A DNA stretch of 20,138 nucleotides from a virus. The stretch lies in the IMG/VR virus record IMGVR_UViG_3300032323_000096, positions 1 through 20,138 of that record; one strand, written 5' to 3'. A program made the position numbers and the translations under genes. Of this stretch, positions 12,184-19,664 are shown in pieces. Positions within the stretch are counted from its first letter, which is position 1, and each line of letters opens with the position of its first letter. Below the pieces are notes generated by a model. That model was given only the letters and a program-made list of their open reading frames with translations, did no database searches and was not told the origin of the DNA.

Positions 12184-12528
12184 TTAAACCCTTGTTGTCG
12201 GATCGGATCGGTAGCACATTAAGGTCACAGACATTCTATCGTTAGCTTCAATGGCATCCGTAATACGCCAATCATGATCTCTCCAAGTAATCGAATATTT
12301 ATCTTGATGATTGACAATATCTTTTAAATTAGGTGTGTAATTAAAAGTGAATTGAATCAAATCTTGATATACACGATAACGCTCTGTAATAGCTACAGAA
12401 TTCTTTACATCAGACACTAAAGGCCTAGTAGTAAATTTCTTTGTTATTGTTGTTGTATAGTCACCATAGGCATTAGTGCCGAAAGTGAGATCATTTACAT
12501 CAACATTCTCATATCGTTTAATGGCCAT
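12184..12528 (-). CDS. Head-tail adaptor / joining protein
   Basis: A 114-residue beta-rich protein immediately after the connector (stop and start abut). Its central FTFNYTPNLKDIVNHQDKYS and C-terminal WRDHDWRITDAIEANDRMSV followed by TLMCYR fit the head-tail joining family (PF05521-like; lambda FII/SPP1 gp16 type), in which a W-R-I strand and a following R..v.l.c strand close the barrel. The protein should form a ring under the connector. The ribosome binding site is weak, suggesting coupling. Confidence is moderate because the match is by pattern only. Confidence 0.65.
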   Translation of the reverse strand: MAIKRYENVDVNDLTFGTNAYGDYTTTITKKFTTRPLVSDVKNSVAITERYRVYQDLIQFTFNYTPNLKDIVNHQDKYSITWRDHDWRITDAIEANDRMSVTLMCYRSDPTTRV

Positions 12529-13194
12529 TTACATTACCAATGGTTTATAAGGTCTTAAAAGAGCATCCACTCCATAAGGAATATTTTGTAATTTAGTCAA
12601 AGTTGTTTCTGCACGATTGTTATAAAGATGAGTTAATAACAATAAAGCCGCTTGTTTAATAACTGGATAAGCCTGTAAGAAATTAGGATTAACTGTATAT
12701 TCAACAACAATAGGCGATGTTACATTCATATTTATATCTTGCGGAGTTCCGTTTGGCAAAATTACTTTGTTACCAGTTGGATCGTAAGAATAATTAGTGT
12801 TTGCTAGAGTTATAAGAGCTACAGGATTGGCGTTGTTATAATATTTAACGCTATTAATAACAACGCTGCCTGTGTTATTACTATCTCTATATGATACTTG
12901 TGGCAAGTCTAAACAAACAGGACTTGCATATAATGAGCTTAAGCCATAATAAACGCGATACGAAATAGGGAATATAGGCATACCAAGATAATCCTCAATA
13001 TGCATTCTTACCGCTAATTCTAAACCTTCTAAATAAGAATCTTGAGATTCATCACCAAACAAGTTTAATTGTTGAGTGATTTCCTCTAACGATAACCATC
13101 CTGTCGTTAAAGCACGATTAATCTGCTCAACTTTATCGTAGTTAAACGGATTGCGAGTGCTTCCGAAAGATACTTGCCCTAGCGTATCAGCCAT
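12529..13194 (-). CDS. Head-tail connector protein (HK97 gp6-like)
   Basis: A 221-residue protein with an N-terminal helical part (GWLSLEEITQQLNLFGDESQ, then LEGLELAVRMHIEDYLGMPI) and a C-terminal end IPYGVDALLRPYKPLVM. That end is the hallmark of gp6/phage_connect_1 family connectors, which end in a GVxALLxPYR-like motif. A longer beta-rich insertion (about residues 90-165) separates the helical parts. It binds the portal and forms the first ring of the neck. It follows the second capsid gene by 2 nt, with GGGA inside the end of that gene as its likely ribosome binding site. Confidence 0.82.
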   Translation of the reverse strand: MADTLGQVSFGSTRNPFNYDKVEQINRALTTGWLSLEEITQQLNLFGDESQDSYLEGLELAVRMHIEDYLGMPIFPISYRVYYGLSSLYASPVCLDLPQVSYRDSNNTGSVVINSVKYYNNANPVALITLANTNYSYDPTGNKVILPNGTPQDINMNVTSPIVVEYTVNPNFLQAYPVIKQAALLLLTHLYNNRAETTLTKLQNIPYGVDALLRPYKPLVM

Positions 13195-13196
13195 TA

Positions 13197-14255
13197 TTAT
13201 ATTCCCATTAAAAATACGCCTGCAAAAGGATTGCGAACAGTAGATGCTAATCTTTTTTCAGCATATAGTGTTACAAAGCCAGGTGCAGTTTGATCAAACA
13301 TCTTAATATTCATTTCCTCTGCATCAGCAATAGTTAGGAATTGATCCCAATTTGCTAAAACGCCTGAAATCTTACCAGCCGCAGGTGCGTCAAGATAAGG
13401 ATTAGGAATTACAGGGAATCCAAAGATATTAGCAATAGCGCCACCATCTTCATCACCTACTTCAACAAACATTGGTGCGCCACCTGTCGATCCTTTTAAT
13501 TTTCTCAATTGAGAAATTAAAGCTGGATGCAAGTGCCATGCAGTTGTTGGCTTACTCCAATATTGACCAGGCAATAATGAAGCTGCATTAGCCATGTCAT
13601 CATAAGTAATTGCTGAAGCGCTAAATTCCTCTTTTAAAATGGTGTGAATACCATTAGTTATAGCAGTTCCGCTTGTGCCATAAGACGCAGCAGAGGTGCT
13701 TGTGTTATAAACAACTAAACCGCGTAGGCCATCAGTTCCGCCAGTTGAAGTTGTTGTTGATCCTGCTTGATCGTTGTTAAGCGCCATACTGGCCGCTTCT
13801 AACGCTGAAAATTCGAGCATCAAATCGTTCACAATTGCAGCTTCAATGCCATTAATATCTGACATCGCCGCAGTTCTAATTGGTAATTGAGCAGTTATTA
13901 CTCTTGTTGGAAGTTGCCAAAAAGAAGTAGCAATATTTGGGCTACCGCTATCGGGAACTACCGCATAAGTCCAGGGATTAGTTGAGTTAGCCGCGTTACC
14001 TGTTTTAGCTACAAATTGAGCTGCTGAAGTATTTGTGGATTTAATTTGACGAGAACCTTGTCTGAAAGGATTAGCATAACGGAGTGCCGCGAATGCATCG
14101 TCAAAGTATGTTCTACCACCAATATTTAAACCGCTACCAGTAAGCGCTGACGCTTCCTTAACATCTTGGGCTTGTTCCTCAAACAAATTAACTTTAGCTT
14201 CGCCTTCAGTTAATGCTTGTTTAATGCCTTTTAAAATTCTTTCAGATGTATTCAT
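13197..14255 (-). CDS. Second HK97-fold capsid protein, paralogue lacking most of the delta domain
   Basis: A 352-residue protein homologous to the neighbouring major capsid protein over nearly its whole length. Shared blocks include EASALTGSG (34-42), AKTGNA, LPIRTAA (against FPIRTAA), NNDQ, GLRGL, a DQTxPGF element (residues differ at one site) and EKRLA near the C-terminus. Its N-terminal part before EASALTGSG has only 33 residues, against 104 in the paralogue, so the scaffold-like delta domain is almost absent. The internal Gly/Ser-rich stretch after GLRGL is also shorter. The start has AGGAAAG upstream. It could be a second shell subunit, a pentamer-specific capsid protein or an expression-tuned variant. 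It appears intact, with no frameshift. Confidence 0.85.
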   Translation of the reverse strand: MNTSERILKGIKQALTEGEAKVNLFEEQAQDVKEASALTGSGLNIGGRTYFDDAFAALRYANPFRQGSRQIKSTNTSAAQFVAKTGNAANSTNPWTYAVVPDSGSPNIATSFWQLPTRVITAQLPIRTAAMSDINGIEAAIVNDLMLEFSALEAASMALNNDQAGSTTTSTGGTDGLRGLVVYNTSTSAASYGTSGTAITNGIHTILKEEFSASAITYDDMANAASLLPGQYWSKPTTAWHLHPALISQLRKLKGSTGGAPMFVEVGDEDGGAIANIFGFPVIPNPYLDAPAAGKISGVLANWDQFLTIADAEEMNIKMFDQTAPGFVTLYAEKRLASTVRNPFAGVFLMGI

Positions 14256-14281
14256 TTTTCTTTCCTAAATTAATTAAAGAG

Positions 14282-14299
14282 GGGCGGATTGCTCCGCCC
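14282..14299 (-). terminator. GC-rich hairpin between the two capsid genes
   Basis: On the minus strand it reads GGGCGGA-GCAA-TCCGCCC: seven perfect base pairs with a GNRA-type GCAA tetraloop, then CTCTTTAATTAATTT. In this AT-rich, gap-free window such a stem stands out. It may act as a partial rho-independent terminator, an RNase stop that protects the upstream capsid mRNA, or both. The U run is short and broken, so full termination is unlikely. Confidence 0.65.
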
Positions 14300-14309
14300 T
14301 TCCCGTTAC

Positions 14310-14326
14310 AATAGTTTTTAACTATT
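14310..14326 (-). repeat. Perfect 7-bp palindrome overlapping the major capsid stop codon
   Basis: AATAGTT-AAA-AACTATT on the minus strand. It takes in part of the TAA stop of the major capsid gene and the TAG that follows directly (tandem stops). With the GC-rich hairpin 10 nt downstream it forms a double-hairpin intergenic region, which suggests mRNA processing or stability control. Confidence 0.6.
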
Positions 14327-15677
14327 ATTTTGTTACTGTTGCAGTTGATCTATAACGAATAATCGCAAATGGATCAATTACTGATGTTGCTAGTCGTTTC
14401 TCACCATAGAATGTGATAAAGCCTGGCAATGTTTGATCATAACGGCGTAGAACCATATTTAAACGATCAACGATTGCATGACCTCTTTGGAAATCACCAA
14501 AATACATTGGATAGAGAGAATCTGTGCCAGCAGCAGTATCCATAGAAGGTTTGTCGAGGTATGTATTAACTACTACATCGAAACCTAATAGAGAACCTAC
14601 GATGCCATCTTCACGAGCTAAACCATCAACATAGATTGGGCGGCCTTGTAAGTCTGTTAAGCCACGAATCGCTGCAAGCATTACTGGGTTAATGATAAAT
14701 TTAGCATTAGGTGTCCAGTATTGTTGTGGTAGTGAGTAGATGAAATTAACAACATCTTTGTAAGTTACAAGATTAGCAGCAGCATCGCCGTTTGTTGTTA
14801 ATTGATCGTATGTAGCGATTGAATGTAAACCGCTTGAAGAACCTGTGCCTGAAGAACCATAAGCAGCAGTAGAAATAGTGCCACCTGTGTATGATCCGTT
14901 AGCGCCTGGATATTGATTTAAACCGCGTAAGCCGTTTGAACCGCCATAAGGAGTTGAATTGCTTGAAGCAACTTGGTCATTATTTTGGATCATTGACAAA
15001 CCTTCTTGTTGGCTGAATTCAGCTAACATGTCTGAAACAACATTGCTTTCTAGGCCATCAATATCGTCAAGAGCAGCAGTTCTGATTGGGAACTGTGTGT
15101 TTAAATCTTGAAGTGTTAATTGCCAAATGTTTGTGCTTTCAGAGTTAGGGTTTGGATTAGGTGCTGAAGTGTTGTTATTAATTGCATAACCCCACCATGC
15201 GCCTGCGTTACCTGTTTTAGCGCGGAATTGATATGTTGCGCCATCAGTTGCAGTAGTTCTTGAAACACCGCGTAATGGGTTGATCAAACGCAATGAAACG
15301 AATACTGGATCATAAGCTGTTCTACCACCCACGCCAGCGCCTGAACCTGTTAAAGCTGAAGCTTCTTTCATGTAAGCATCATATTGGCCAGCATCTTCAA
15401 AGAGTTTGATTTCTTTTTCATGACGACCATTGTTTTTAACGAATTCAGCAAGTTGGCCTTTAACCATACGATTAACTTCTTGGCTGATTGATTTGTATGT
15501 TTTGATTAATGAAGGAGCTTGAACTGAAGCAACTTTAGCTTCAAGTGCAGCTACTTTTTCATCAAATGAAGCTACTGTTTCAGCAAGTTTAGCATCAACT
15601 GAAGTAGTAATTTCTTCAACTTTTGCTAAATTAGCTGCTTCAATAGCATCTAATTTTTCAATAATTTTATCTGACAT
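14325..15677 (-). CDS. Major capsid protein (HK97 fold)
   Basis: A 450-residue protein. Residues 1-104 are a helical, charged delta-domain-like scaffold (about 3-52 look coiled coil) ending at AYMK. The conserved EASALTGSGAGVGG begins at 105, and a cut near residue 104 would match HK97 gp5, cleaved after residue 103. The shell part contains LRLINPLRGVSR (129-140), FRAKTGNAGAWWGYA, NTQFPIRTAALDDIDG, and a C-terminal YDQTLPGFITFYGEKRLATS, typical of the HK97 capsid fold. It follows the protease gene by 3 nt with AAAGGA embedded in that gene's end. A second capsid-like gene lies immediately downstream. This is probably the dominant shell protein, since it keeps the scaffold domain and has the stronger layout. 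Confidence 0.93.
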   Translation of the reverse strand: MSDKIIEKLDAIEAANLAKVEEITTSVDAKLAETVASFDEKVAALEAKVASVQAPSLIKTYKSISQEVNRMVKGQLAEFVKNNGRHEKEIKLFEDAGQYDAYMKEASALTGSGAGVGGRTAYDPVFVSLRLINPLRGVSRTTATDGATYQFRAKTGNAGAWWGYAINNNTSAPNPNPNSESTNIWQLTLQDLNTQFPIRTAALDDIDGLESNVVSDMLAEFSQQEGLSMIQNNDQVASSNSTPYGGSNGLRGLNQYPGANGSYTGGTISTAAYGSSGTGSSSGLHSIATYDQLTTNGDAAANLVTYKDVVNFIYSLPQQYWTPNAKFIINPVMLAAIRGLTDLQGRPIYVDGLAREDGIVGSLLGFDVVVNTYLDKPSMDTAAGTDSLYPMYFGDFQRGHAIVDRLNMVLRRYDQTLPGFITFYGEKRLATSVIDPFAIIRYRSTATVTK

Positions 15678-15680
15678 GAT

Positions 15681-16484
15681 TTATCCTTTTAAACGATTGT
15701 TAAGTTTTTTAAGAAGTTCTCTTTCCTCAAAAGCTTTGAGTAATTGATCTTCTTCATTTACCACCGCATCAGCATCACTCTGAATAGGTGCTTTTTCAAC
15801 TTCAACTTTAGGCTCATCACGAGTTGCTAAAATTTGTTTGAAAATTGAAGACGCGGTGGTCGCATCTTTTCTTGAAAGTTTTGCATCACGCAATGCTTTC
15901 TCGATTAGTTTTAAGTCTAAAGAACCATCGGCTCTAAAGCACTCTAATTTCGAGATATTGCATTCTAAATTGTTAGGTTGCATAACAATTGATACTTCAC
16001 GCAGTCCGCCTTTAGTAATTTGGAAATATGCTTCATCCATATCATCATCGTCTGATAACATATTGCCTTCTTTATCTGTCATACAGTATTCATCAGCATA
16101 AGCACCTACAGAAACACCGCCAACCATATTTGGCGATTCTTTCATAATTGTATAAAGGTCTTTACCAGCGCTTGTATTAGTAAATAGCCTGCCTTTTGCA
16201 TCCATTCCTTCGTCTGTGAATGAAAACTCTTGCCATTCACCTACAGGCATCGACATATCGTTATGTTGGAAATACATTGGGAGTGGTTTACCTGATTTTG
16301 CAAACTCATCAGCCCATTGTGCAAAACCTTCAGGCTTATAATTAAATTTACGACCATCAGCGCCTTCTCTAGCGCCCCAAGTTGTTACAGTAGCTTCTAT
16401 TAATCCAGTTGTATCTAAAGCTTCGTCATTTTTAATTCCTAACGCTACTTTTGATTCAAATAGAAATTTAATATCTTTAGTCAT
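15681..16484 (-). CDS. Prohead protease (HK97 gp4-like, S78 family)
   Basis: A 267-residue protein. The likely catalytic residues are visible: H74 in MYFQHNDMSMPVGEW, S125 in VGGVSVGAY, and E163 in LREVSIVMQPNN, as in HK97-type prohead proteases (His-Ser-Glu/Asp triad). The C-terminal part (about 195-267) is charged and helical and probably mediates entry into the prohead before self-removal. The start has a strong AAGGGAG about nine bases upstream, and the ATG lies inside the end of a 36-residue ORF. It would cleave the delta domain of the capsid protein, and possibly the short N-terminus of the paralogue. Confidence 0.93.
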   Translation of the reverse strand: MTKDIKFLFESKVALGIKNDEALDTTGLIEATVTTWGAREGADGRKFNYKPEGFAQWADEFAKSGKPLPMYFQHNDMSMPVGEWQEFSFTDEGMDAKGRLFTNTSAGKDLYTIMKESPNMVGGVSVGAYADEYCMTDKEGNMLSDDDDMDEAYFQITKGGLREVSIVMQPNNLECNISKLECFRADGSLDLKLIEKALRDAKLSRKDATTASSIFKQILATRDEPKVEVEKAPIQSDADAVVNEEDQLLKAFEERELLKKLNNRLKG

Positions 16485-16587
16485 TGATTGGCACTCCCTT
16501 ATTTTTCATTCCGTTAGTTTCAATCGGCTTTGGTTTTCTTTTTAAAGCGGATTGGGTTAATTTATCGAGTAACTCTTTTAATGTCAT
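16477..16587 (-). CDS. 36-residue ORF coupled between portal and protease
   Basis: Found by reading the 100-nt space between portal and protease. The ATG at 16587 shares a base with the portal stop (TAATG), and the frame runs 36 codons to a TAA that overlaps the protease start by 8 nt. The product begins MTLKELLDKLTQSALKRKPK and is basic, with a short amphipathic helix and a flexible polar end. It has no homologue I recognise. It fills the gap exactly and couples both neighbours, so it may be a small real protein or a translational bridge. Its own initiation would rely on reinitiation after the portal stop. Confidence 0.5.
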   Translation of the reverse strand: MTLKELLDKLTQSALKRKPKPIETNGMKNKGVPIND

Positions 16588-17996
16588 TAGGCTTTACCTG
16601 CCTGACCTGTTTTGCCAACGCTAGAAGTATTACCACCGCCACCTGTATCTTGAGGTGAAGTGCCACTAATAGGTTTAGCTTGTTTTGATGTATCTTTTAA
16701 TTCGTCTGCGCCTTCCATATTTTGTTTGCCAAGATATTCGCGCGCTTCATTAGGTGTCATTATACCATTTGTTACGCCTGCCACTACATAATTCATTTGA
16801 TCTAGCGGTGCGCCTTTAAGGAAATCTTGAGTTTGGAATTCAATGCATAGATTTGGATAGCCAGCAAGCAATGAAGTTTTAAATTTTTGTTGAATGTTAG
16901 TAATTACAGGAAGCATTGTTGATTTGTAGAATTCATCTAGCATAGTTTGTGTATTGTTATACTTACCTTCCTCAATTCCGATCATTGCAGGTGGCACACC
17001 AAACAATCCGCATATACGCTTCATTGTTTGTTGTTTTAATGCTCTTGCATCAGCATCTTGAAGTGTAAGCATATCTAGTGGCATATATTTCATGCCGTTA
17101 TCTAACAACATACCTTGACCTGGTTTAGATAGATCAGTTGATTTTGATCCTGTTAATGATGTCCATGCTTCTTTTAATCTTGCGGCAATCTCTTTAAATT
17201 TAGCGTCAGGAATAACTTGATCTGTAACAAACATGCCACTAGGTTTAGCACCATTTAGCATAATAAAATTGCTATATAAATCAATATCTTGATCTAATGA
17301 TACTAATTCTGTTGCTAGAATACCTTTATTGAAACCAGCGCTACCTTGCCAAGCCATTTCACTTGCATGAATAACTTGGAAATAATCTAATGGCTCATCT
17401 TTATTAAATCCGTATGTAGAAGTGCTTAATCTATATGTTGGATAGCGAGTTGGAGTAATTTGTGCAGTAATTAGAGTTGAATCTAATAAATACATTTCCA
17501 TTGGTGTTAGCGTAGAGTTATTTTGCTCTTTACGCCATAAAGCAGTAAATGTTTCACCTGATAGGTCATACCACATGGACCATTGATACCAAAATTCATA
17601 TGCAGATTGATAGTTATTAGGATTGTTTAATAAATAATAAACTGCTTTTGCTTTTGCTTTATCTCTTGCTGATACATTAGGATTAGTGACCGCATCTACT
17701 AATTTATTATCGGCATCATAAGCCATAATTTTAATGGGTAATTGAGCTAATGCCCTTGCTTTTGCATTCACACAGGCCATAACTGTTGAGTTACGGGATA
17801 GTGTGGACATATCCAATACTCGGCCTGCGGTATTAACGGATGATGTCGTTACATATAATAATTGGTTATTTGATTGAGTGCCTTGCCCTTTAACATTGCG
17901 TAGAATGTTATTACCAAGAGCGGTTTGACCAAAAAGAGTATTACTTTCTTGCGCGTTTTGATTTGGTTTTCTTTTGAATATATCTGTTATAGCCAT
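16587..17996 (-). CDS. Portal protein (HK97 family)
   Basis: A 469-residue protein of the HK97 portal family. Seen are SRNSTVMACVNAKARALAQL (67-86, the typical early helix), NPNNYQSAYEFWYQW (125-139), the FGVPPAMIGIEEGKYNNTQ block (332-350) with the following TMLPVITNIQQKF stem helix, and GIMTPNEAREYLG (411-423) near the crown. The last 30 residues are Gly/Thr/Ser-rich and probably disordered. The start has AAAGGA upstream and lies 9 nt after the large terminase stop. It forms the twelve-fold vertex ring that docks the terminase and the neck. Confidence 0.93.
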   Translation of the reverse strand: MAITDIFKRKPNQNAQESNTLFGQTALGNNILRNVKGQGTQSNNQLLYVTTSSVNTAGRVLDMSTLSRNSTVMACVNAKARALAQLPIKIMAYDADNKLVDAVTNPNVSARDKAKAKAVYYLLNNPNNYQSAYEFWYQWSMWYDLSGETFTALWRKEQNNSTLTPMEMYLLDSTLITAQITPTRYPTYRLSTSTYGFNKDEPLDYFQVIHASEMAWQGSAGFNKGILATELVSLDQDIDLYSNFIMLNGAKPSGMFVTDQVIPDAKFKEIAARLKEAWTSLTGSKSTDLSKPGQGMLLDNGMKYMPLDMLTLQDADARALKQQTMKRICGLFGVPPAMIGIEEGKYNNTQTMLDEFYKSTMLPVITNIQQKFKTSLLAGYPNLCIEFQTQDFLKGAPLDQMNYVVAGVTNGIMTPNEAREYLGKQNMEGADELKDTSKQAKPISGTSPQDTGGGGNTSSVGKTGQAGKA

Positions 17997-18005
17997 GTTT
18001 TTCCT

Positions 18006-19664
18006 TTATATACTTCTAAAACCAAACGAGGTAGAAGTTAATGGATGATCTAGTGAGCAATGCATCGCAATAATAAGCGCTATTATACCATCAACCTTTG
18101 CTGACTTGTCTGCTTCGTTCTTGCGAATCTTAATATTTCCATTTACATCTTCATAAACTTCGCAGTTACCTAACTGCCATCCGAGAAATGGATTGCCATT
18201 ATGTTTTATTTGATTTTGCATGATGAGCTTTTCAACATGCTTTGAAGGATTGCTTAAAACTGCCATTCCTTGCCCTACCTTTTTAACAGGTATGCTATTA
18301 TCGTGTAGTCTTGCAATAAGAGATGCTGCGTTATAAGCATCATACCCTACTTCTTTAACATTATAAAGTGTTGCTTGTTGTTTTATCCATTCTGATATTT
18401 CTCTATCATCCATAACATTGCCTTCGGTGATATGAAGTATTTTAGATTGAACTGCTTGCTCAAAGATTCCTTTGTAGTGAGTTGGAATTAGATTAAGCGC
18501 TTCTTCAGGTAAAAAGAATTTAAAGTCTGCATAATAATTATCTTCGGCATAGCGCTTTAATACACAAACTGCATTTAAGTCGCGAGTGGCTGCTAGGTCA
18601 AATCCGATAAACACTTCTTCAGGATCGCCTGGATCGTCACCTACAGATTTATCCCAATAATCGCGATCAATCCATGCGGTGTTAGCAGATACATATACAT
18701 TAAGAGTTTTACAAAGAAACTCATTAAGAGCTGCTGGTTTTAATTTAGCTTGTTCACATCTTTCTTTAATAGCTTCTTGATATACAGAAATGCCATGCAT
18801 AGGATTAGCTTTGGCCCAAGTTGTTTCATCTTTCCAGTTATCTTGCGGATCAAGTCCGTATAGCAAACCAAACCAATGAGGATTGTCAGCAGCATCACCA
18901 TTAAGCATAGTTTCAAAGGCCGTTAAGTCCTCAAAGAACTTTGTATCTTTAGTAAATGATGCGGTAGTGATATAAATTCTTAAAGGATTCTTTCGGGCCA
19001 CCATACCTGAAAATATAACTTCAATAGAATTACGATCCACAATCTGCGCAGCTTCATCTATGATTGCGCAAGATGCATTCTTTCCGTCACCTGATTTTTT
19101 ATTATCGCGAGATAAAGCTCGGAACATAGATTGACTATCATTAGCTTTTCCAATCTCGTATTTAGAAACTCGATACCATGATTTGACTTCATCAGGCATA
19201 GATTCGACCATTGATCTTGCTGCATCAAAAACAATAGTAGCCTGTTCGCGATTGGTAGCTAAAGTAAAGACTTCAGCGCCAGCTTCATTAAATGCTAATT
19301 CATATAAACCTATAACTGCGGTTAAAGTTGATTTACCAGCTTTACGAGGAATAAAAACAATGACATCGGTTGTCATTCTTTTCTCATGGTCTTTCTTGTG
19401 ACGGAATCCATAAATACCGCAAAGAAGTAAAACTTGGAAAGGTTCGAGAACTATTGGTTGGCCAGCATCAGGGCCTTTAGTGTGTTTAAGTATTGAAACG
19501 AAATCTAATACATGCTCTACATATTCAGGAAAGAATTCATATTCCCAATGCTTATCTTCCATAAAATTTAGAAAGCGTTGGCATGCTAATCTTATATTAT
19601 TGCAAACTTCAATATTGCCTTTAACTACATCTTTGGCGTATTGAACTCCGATTAAATAACTCAT
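18006..19664 (-). CDS. terL: Large terminase subunit
   Basis: A 552-residue packaging motor. The ATPase has a Walker A element in PRKAGKST (106-113), Walker B with catalytic Glu in CAIIDEAAQ (D203, E204) and a TTAS coupling motif (233-236). The nuclease domain carries acidic residues in GFDLAATRDL (D356), GYDAYNA (D442) and KVDGII (D525), consistent with the RNase H-like metal site. Length is usual for HK97/P27-partnered terminases, which mostly cut at cos sites; that mode is inferred. It overlaps the small terminase by 4 nt (ATGA). It appears complete. Confidence 0.95.
   Translation of the reverse strand: MSYLIGVQYAKDVVKGNIEVCNNIRLACQRFLNFMEDKHWEYEFFPEYVEHVLDFVSILKHTKGPDAGQPIVLEPFQVLLLCGIYGFRHKKDHEKRMTTDVIVFIPRKAGKSTLTAVIGLYELAFNEAGAEVFTLATNREQATIVFDAARSMVESMPDEVKSWYRVSKYEIGKANDSQSMFRALSRDNKKSGDGKNASCAIIDEAAQIVDRNSIEVIFSGMVARKNPLRIYITTASFTKDTKFFEDLTAFETMLNGDAADNPHWFGLLYGLDPQDNWKDETTWAKANPMHGISVYQEAIKERCEQAKLKPAALNEFLCKTLNVYVSANTAWIDRDYWDKSVGDDPGDPEEVFIGFDLAATRDLNAVCVLKRYAEDNYYADFKFFLPEEALNLIPTHYKGIFEQAVQSKILHITEGNVMDDREISEWIKQQATLYNVKEVGYDAYNAASLIARLHDNSIPVKKVGQGMAVLSNPSKHVEKLIMQNQIKHNGNPFLGWQLGNCEVYEDVNGNIKIRKNEADKSAKVDGIIALIIAMHCSLDHPLTSTSFGFRSI

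Follow-up and report, generated by a model that had tools for sequence, protein, structure and literature searches.

Why should a small tailed phage encode two related capsid proteins side by side, and what would the second one contribute to the shell? The locus that raises this question lies on part of a tailed-phage genome, a virus record of 20,138 bases analyzed here over its whole length (the window), in which the head genes, like all features given below, are on the minus strand. In order, they encode the large terminase (18006..19664; PF20441, E = 2.1e-47), the portal (16587..17996; PF04860, E = 2.4e-60), an S78 prohead protease (15681..16484; PF04586, E = 1.2e-8), the 450-aa major capsid protein of the HK97 family, M1 (14325..15677), a second HK97-fold capsid protein of 352 aa, M2 (13197..14255, with a Shine-Dalgarno-like AGGAAAG at 14260..14266), the head-tail adaptor Ad1 (12529..13194; phrog_40, E = 2.5e-13), which starts 2 nt past M2 on the same transcript segment, and a probable head closure protein (12184..12528; a weak PF05521 match below the cut-off, together with its position). 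The protease gene is directly upstream of M1, and tail genes come after the head closure gene.

A sequence-only reading of the window had taken the two open reading frames for tandem, duplicated HK97 capsid genes; both frames are present at these coordinates, and both products match the capsid families PF05065 (M1, 112.8 bits, E = 2.5e-32; M2, 60.4 bits, E = 2.3e-16; cut-off 24.2) and TIGR01554. M1 also matches phrog_10 (major head protein) and is 78% identical to the capsid protein of Methylophilaceae phage P19250A, and M2 is 77% identical to P19250A_0006. The BLASTP alignment of M1 with M2 spans 380 columns at 37% identity (E = 2e-69, 212 bits), a match far past chance, and it contains all of the shared blocks named in that reading, in the same order. 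Structure prediction, which it had proposed for both proteins, was informative for M2, but the M1 model is of low confidence (pTM 0.30; helices predicted at residues 3-51, 64-81, and 96-108), so that the HK97 assignment of M1 rests on sequence; its closest solved structure by this route is the RcGTA capsid protein (E = 2.8e-11). The AlphaFold model of M2 (pLDDT 69, pTM 0.69, from a 19-sequence alignment), compared with the RcGTA and HK97 capsid proteins, has a complete HK97 fold, including the N-arm, the E-loop, the P-domain with its spine helix, and the A-domain, and its structural matches are the RcGTA capsid (Z 21.4 over 244 residues), HK97 prohead I (Z 16.5), and encapsulins (Z 15-16). By profile and predicted structure, M2 is an HK97-fold protein. 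A longer gene interrupted by a frameshift does not account for M2: a stop in the M2 frame occurs shortly before its ATG, and a hairpin lies in the gap between the genes.

The two proteins differ most visibly ahead of a shared junction motif, EASALTGSG, which starts at residue 105 in M1 (residues 105-113; 15339..15365) and at residue 34 in M2 (residues 34-42; 14130..14156). The 104 preceding residues of M1 (15366..15677) form a long, predicted helical region that is a putative scaffold or prodomain, and its place in M2 is taken by 33 residues (14157..14255) comprising a short conserved helix (residues 3-17) and a linker. These lengths are kept in relatives (97-116 residues in M1 and 18-43 in M2, across 208 distinct aligned pairs), as anticipated for a scaffold-poor second copy, and the E, S, T, and G of the junction are each more than 90% conserved in both families of the same 208 pairs. 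The M2 N-terminus is more than a truncation, with the short helix conserved before the junction as LxGIKxALxxG. The suggestion that a single protease may cut both proteins at the common motif agrees with the adjoining S78 protease gene, whose product is the candidate cutter of M1 and M2. A subgroup of M2 proteins (in L092, L091, L108, L120, L125, L155, and several of L359-L367) carries an extra N-terminal domain of ∼95 residues (MPKPTQAMKEEAQRGLDWRKEF..., phrog_2859, function not assigned), which is also found at the start of two capsid proteins of ∼800 aa, from roseophage CRP-406 and Synechococcus phage S-CBS1, and in further phage proteins.

A capsid-like protein without a long prodomain, whose N-terminal helix and core align with encapsulins, could in principle build a scaffold-free particle of its own or act inside the cell, outside the virion. 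The junction motif held in common with M1, the adjoining protease, and the constant place of M2 in the head operon all point away from such a function, no cargo gene was recognised nearby, and we regard it as highly unlikely.

How widely the pair occurs bears on whether M2 is needed at all. By tblastn against 50,697 phage records, M2 was matched only in P19250A, where M1 precedes it and M2 is annotated as a hypothetical protein, and IMG/VR holds hundreds of relatives with the locus. All fetched loci were scanned with profiles of M1 and M2: the tandem occurs in 340 of 340 locus records with enough flank (some records repeat one contig), and complete pairs were obtained from 297 loci (225 distinct), including the isolate P19250A. 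The search for the same gene pair in related phages, proposed in the sequence-only reading, thus returned it wherever the flank sufficed. In the 28 loci of the group with a single gene, the contig edge falls within ∼300 bases of the missing one, and the remaining seven loci belong to distant single-capsid phages. The order protease-M1-M2-Ad1 is constant across relatives. Decay of the second gene, which that reading had named as evidence against a working shell protein, was looked for, and neither M1 nor M2 is lost or decayed in any of the 340 locus records or 297 complete pairs. A short-looking M2 (206 aa, in L156) gives tblastn matches from residue 11 onward and appears to be a start-codon effect. 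An assembly artefact is ruled out, since hundreds of contigs have the pair, as does the deposited genome of an isolate. The carriers, small tailed phages from freshwater and marine habitats, form a large group in which the pair was found without exception; a scan of genome contigs yielded only five loci, all in metagenome-assembled genomes. Individual loci show local variation: M1 of L050 (1-1049), a locus counted apart from the 340, is split across two overlapping frames, likely by a sequencing error or frameshift, and in L053 (2090-2430) and L058 ∼250 extra bases resembling a small HNH-type endonuclease gene lie between intact M1 and M2.

A search for single-capsid phages inside the M1-M2 clade found none, and the nearest such phages are ∼24-35% identical to M1. 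Two single-capsid relatives have a gene of ∼141 residues between the capsid and adaptor genes (L369:5891-6313 and L374:4457-4882, Manatee Spring siphovirus and Desulfofustis phage), possibly decoration-like and in one case annotated as a capsid protein. M2 might accordingly be an outer decoration protein occupying the same slot. Decoration proteins have a non-HK97 fold and sit outside the shell, whereas the M2 model is a complete HK97 fold that retains the lattice-building N-arm and E-loop; to our knowledge, there is no HK97-fold decoration protein, and this role is very improbable.

The origin of the pair was addressed with a maximum-likelihood tree of 30 representative pairs and seven single-capsid outgroups. 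M2 forms a single clade (SH-aLRT 100) on a stem of 1.6 changes per site, so the pair stems from one ancient duplication before the group radiated, which, with the 37% identity, upholds the duplication origin first read from the shared blocks. On account of the long outgroup branch, M1 can be called a strict sister clade only tentatively. The two clades are unmixed, ruling out gene conversion between M1 and M2. Values of dN/dS between the window and 13 relatives are 0.17-0.24 for M1 and 0.13-0.29 for M2; purifying selection acts on both. A redundant duplicate, retained through chance or dosage, would be consistent with the clear duplication, but given the long divergence, the unmixed clades, the dN/dS of M2, and the absence of loss from 340 locus records, it is barely credible.

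The two genes may nevertheless not always have traveled together. The mean between-lineage distance is smaller for M1 (0.28) than for M2 (0.38), and it is M1 whose distances show the weakest correlations with other genes (0.59-0.71, with M2 at 0.59), whereas M2 distances correlate with those of the portal and Ad1 at 0.80-0.81. Between the window and L091, for instance, M1 is 80% identical, M2 54%, and the portal 65%. These patterns suggest that lineages exchange M1 but retain M2 together with the portal and adaptor, and that quite different M2 proteins can work with a single M1 type; the M1/M2 distance correlation does not speak for a tight fit between the two.

A further feature, absent from the sequence-only account, lies in the gap between M1 and M2, which is mostly 43-73 nt long and in which a G+C-rich hairpin precedes a T-rich stretch. 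The window has this terminator-like hairpin (TAACGGGAAGGGCGGAGCAATCCGCCCCTCTTTA, dG -17.6) at 14275..14308. Using a criterion of dG -8 or lower and at least four T in the next nine bases, 193 of the 201 distinct sequences that follow M1 have such a hairpin (comprising 163 different hairpin sequences), compared with 38 of 180 shuffles (21%), with a median z-score of -3.0 over 60 bases. It is also found after M1 in P19250A, and a similar post-capsid hairpin is found in most of the seven single-capsid outgroups; thus, the hairpin is probably older than the duplication, and a device unique to the pair or specific to M2 is ruled out. In T7, the T-phi terminator after gene 10 attenuates transcription past the capsid gene. 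We infer that the hairpin here likewise acts as a transcription attenuator after a highly expressed capsid gene. Its position between the two genes would place M2 in the weaker-expressed connector and tail part of the transcript, and fewer copies of M2 than of M1 are therefore predicted.

The absence of decay, the purifying selection, the fold of M2, and its constant place in the head operon support a working second shell protein, and M2 is very probably a real structural subunit of the shell. Its short N-terminal region and its place behind the hairpin further suggest a low-copy building block. To ask where such a subunit might sit, we compared normalised conservation between the M1 and M2 families, with domain limits set by eye from the model secondary structure. 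The best-kept parts are those that make lattice contacts, with values of 0.75 for the N-arm, 0.69 for the E-loop, 0.72 for the spine, and 0.82 for the G-loop region. Among the least kept are the A-domain, which lies at the capsomer axis (0.51), the strand that follows the E-loop (0.50), and the long strands of the P-domain (0.57). This pattern is compatible with a subunit of the same lattice that has a different capsomer centre; the low conservation outside the A-domain as well counts against the A-domain part of that argument.

Among the roles put forward in the sequence-only reading (pentamers, co-assembly to change capsid size, and decoration), the vertex would fit best, and we lean slightly toward M2 being the penton at the eleven non-portal vertices. 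In most small HK97-type phages, pentons and hexons are formed from one protein, which counts against this assignment. As we envisage it, M1 would build the bulk of the shell as a procapsid, bringing its built-in scaffold domain, and M2, an ancient paralogue that has lost this domain, would co-assemble with it as a minor subunit. Since it has no scaffold of its own, M2 would dock into the M1 procapsid via its N-terminal helix, N-arm, E-loop, and spine helix. The hairpin after M1 would stop part of transcription and keep M2 below M1; if the shell is taken to be T=7, eleven pentons would account for 55 copies of M2, against 360 of M1. Once the S78 protease had trimmed both proteins near the shared EASALT junction, the shell would expand.

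The main rival to the penton is an irregular mixing of M2 with M1, in which M2 would be a co-assembled minor subunit beyond the vertices, in hexamers or around the portal, and would adjust size, curvature, or stability. Two Family 2B encapsulin paralogues of Streptomyces lydicus co-assemble in this way, with variable composition and irregular tiling (PMC12407261). The conserved lattice-contact parts would also suit such mixing, and M2 distances track the portal (0.80) and Ad1 (0.81) more than M1, although that correlation may reflect only the recombinational exchange of M1. The strict 1:1 pairing of the genes and a hairpin predicted to hold down M2 suit a fixed-copy role better, and we consider the mixed shell rather unlikely, with the penton preferred.

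The known systems most similar to the pair each share only part of it. The RcGTA capsid protein Rcc01687 (6tb9/6tsu) is the closest solved structure to M2, and by sequence to M1, and that protein alone makes up the pentamers as well as the hexamers of RcGTA (PMC7296036). HK97 gp5 has the same fold, carries its scaffold (delta) domain within the capsid polypeptide, and is encoded next to an S78-type protease, but HK97 has a single capsid gene, unlike these phages. Two-component Family 2B encapsulins place two HK97-fold paralogues in one shell, as proposed for M1 and M2, but are cellular nanocompartments without a phage protease, portal, or terminase (PMC12407261); the cyclic-nucleotide-binding domain of that family is absent from M1 and M2, and instead of a cargo operon their neighbours are phage head and tail genes. 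In the open-access literature, we found no paper describing paired HK97 capsid genes in HK97/GTA-type siphophages; apparent matches meant two copies of one protein. Many viral contigs probably label M2 as hypothetical or mistake it for the major capsid protein, and recognition of the pair would improve their annotation.

The closest functional parallel is T4, in which gp24, a paralogue of gp23, occupies the 11 pentameric vertices, the prohead protease cuts both proteins (with gp24 losing 10 residues and gp23 65), and gp24 can be bypassed by gp23 mutations (PMC9958956). Like gp23 and gp24, M1 and M2 are HK97-fold paralogues that arose by duplication, and in each pair the N-terminal region of the second protein is far shorter. 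T4 differs in being a large prolate myophage with a gp21 protease and ∼20% identity between gp23 and gp24, whereas the M1/M2 phages have small genomes (38.7 kb in P19250A), an S78 protease, PF05065 capsid proteins, and 37% identity, with a vertex role that is predicted for M2. Pfam and PHROGs assign M1 and M2 only to PF05065 and phrog_10/phrog_15928, outside the gp23/gp24 sequence families. By this comparison, a division that works like gp23/gp24 most likely arose independently. More specifically, we tentatively propose, at a little less than even weight, a lineage-wide scaffold-free penton of independent origin in small HK97/GTA-type siphophages, with the hexon-to-penton stoichiometry set by the attenuator; a phage of ∼38 kb would then divide the labour as T4 does, in minimal form. 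How one HK97-fold protein chooses between pentamer and hexamer is a long-standing question, and T4, which separates these tasks, is a large and complex phage; if our reading is correct, a small, abundant lineage with scaffold-bearing and scaffold-free paralogues would offer a natural experiment in compact form. The pair, gene order, and hairpin of the window are shared by the isolate P19250A, which makes the question directly testable.
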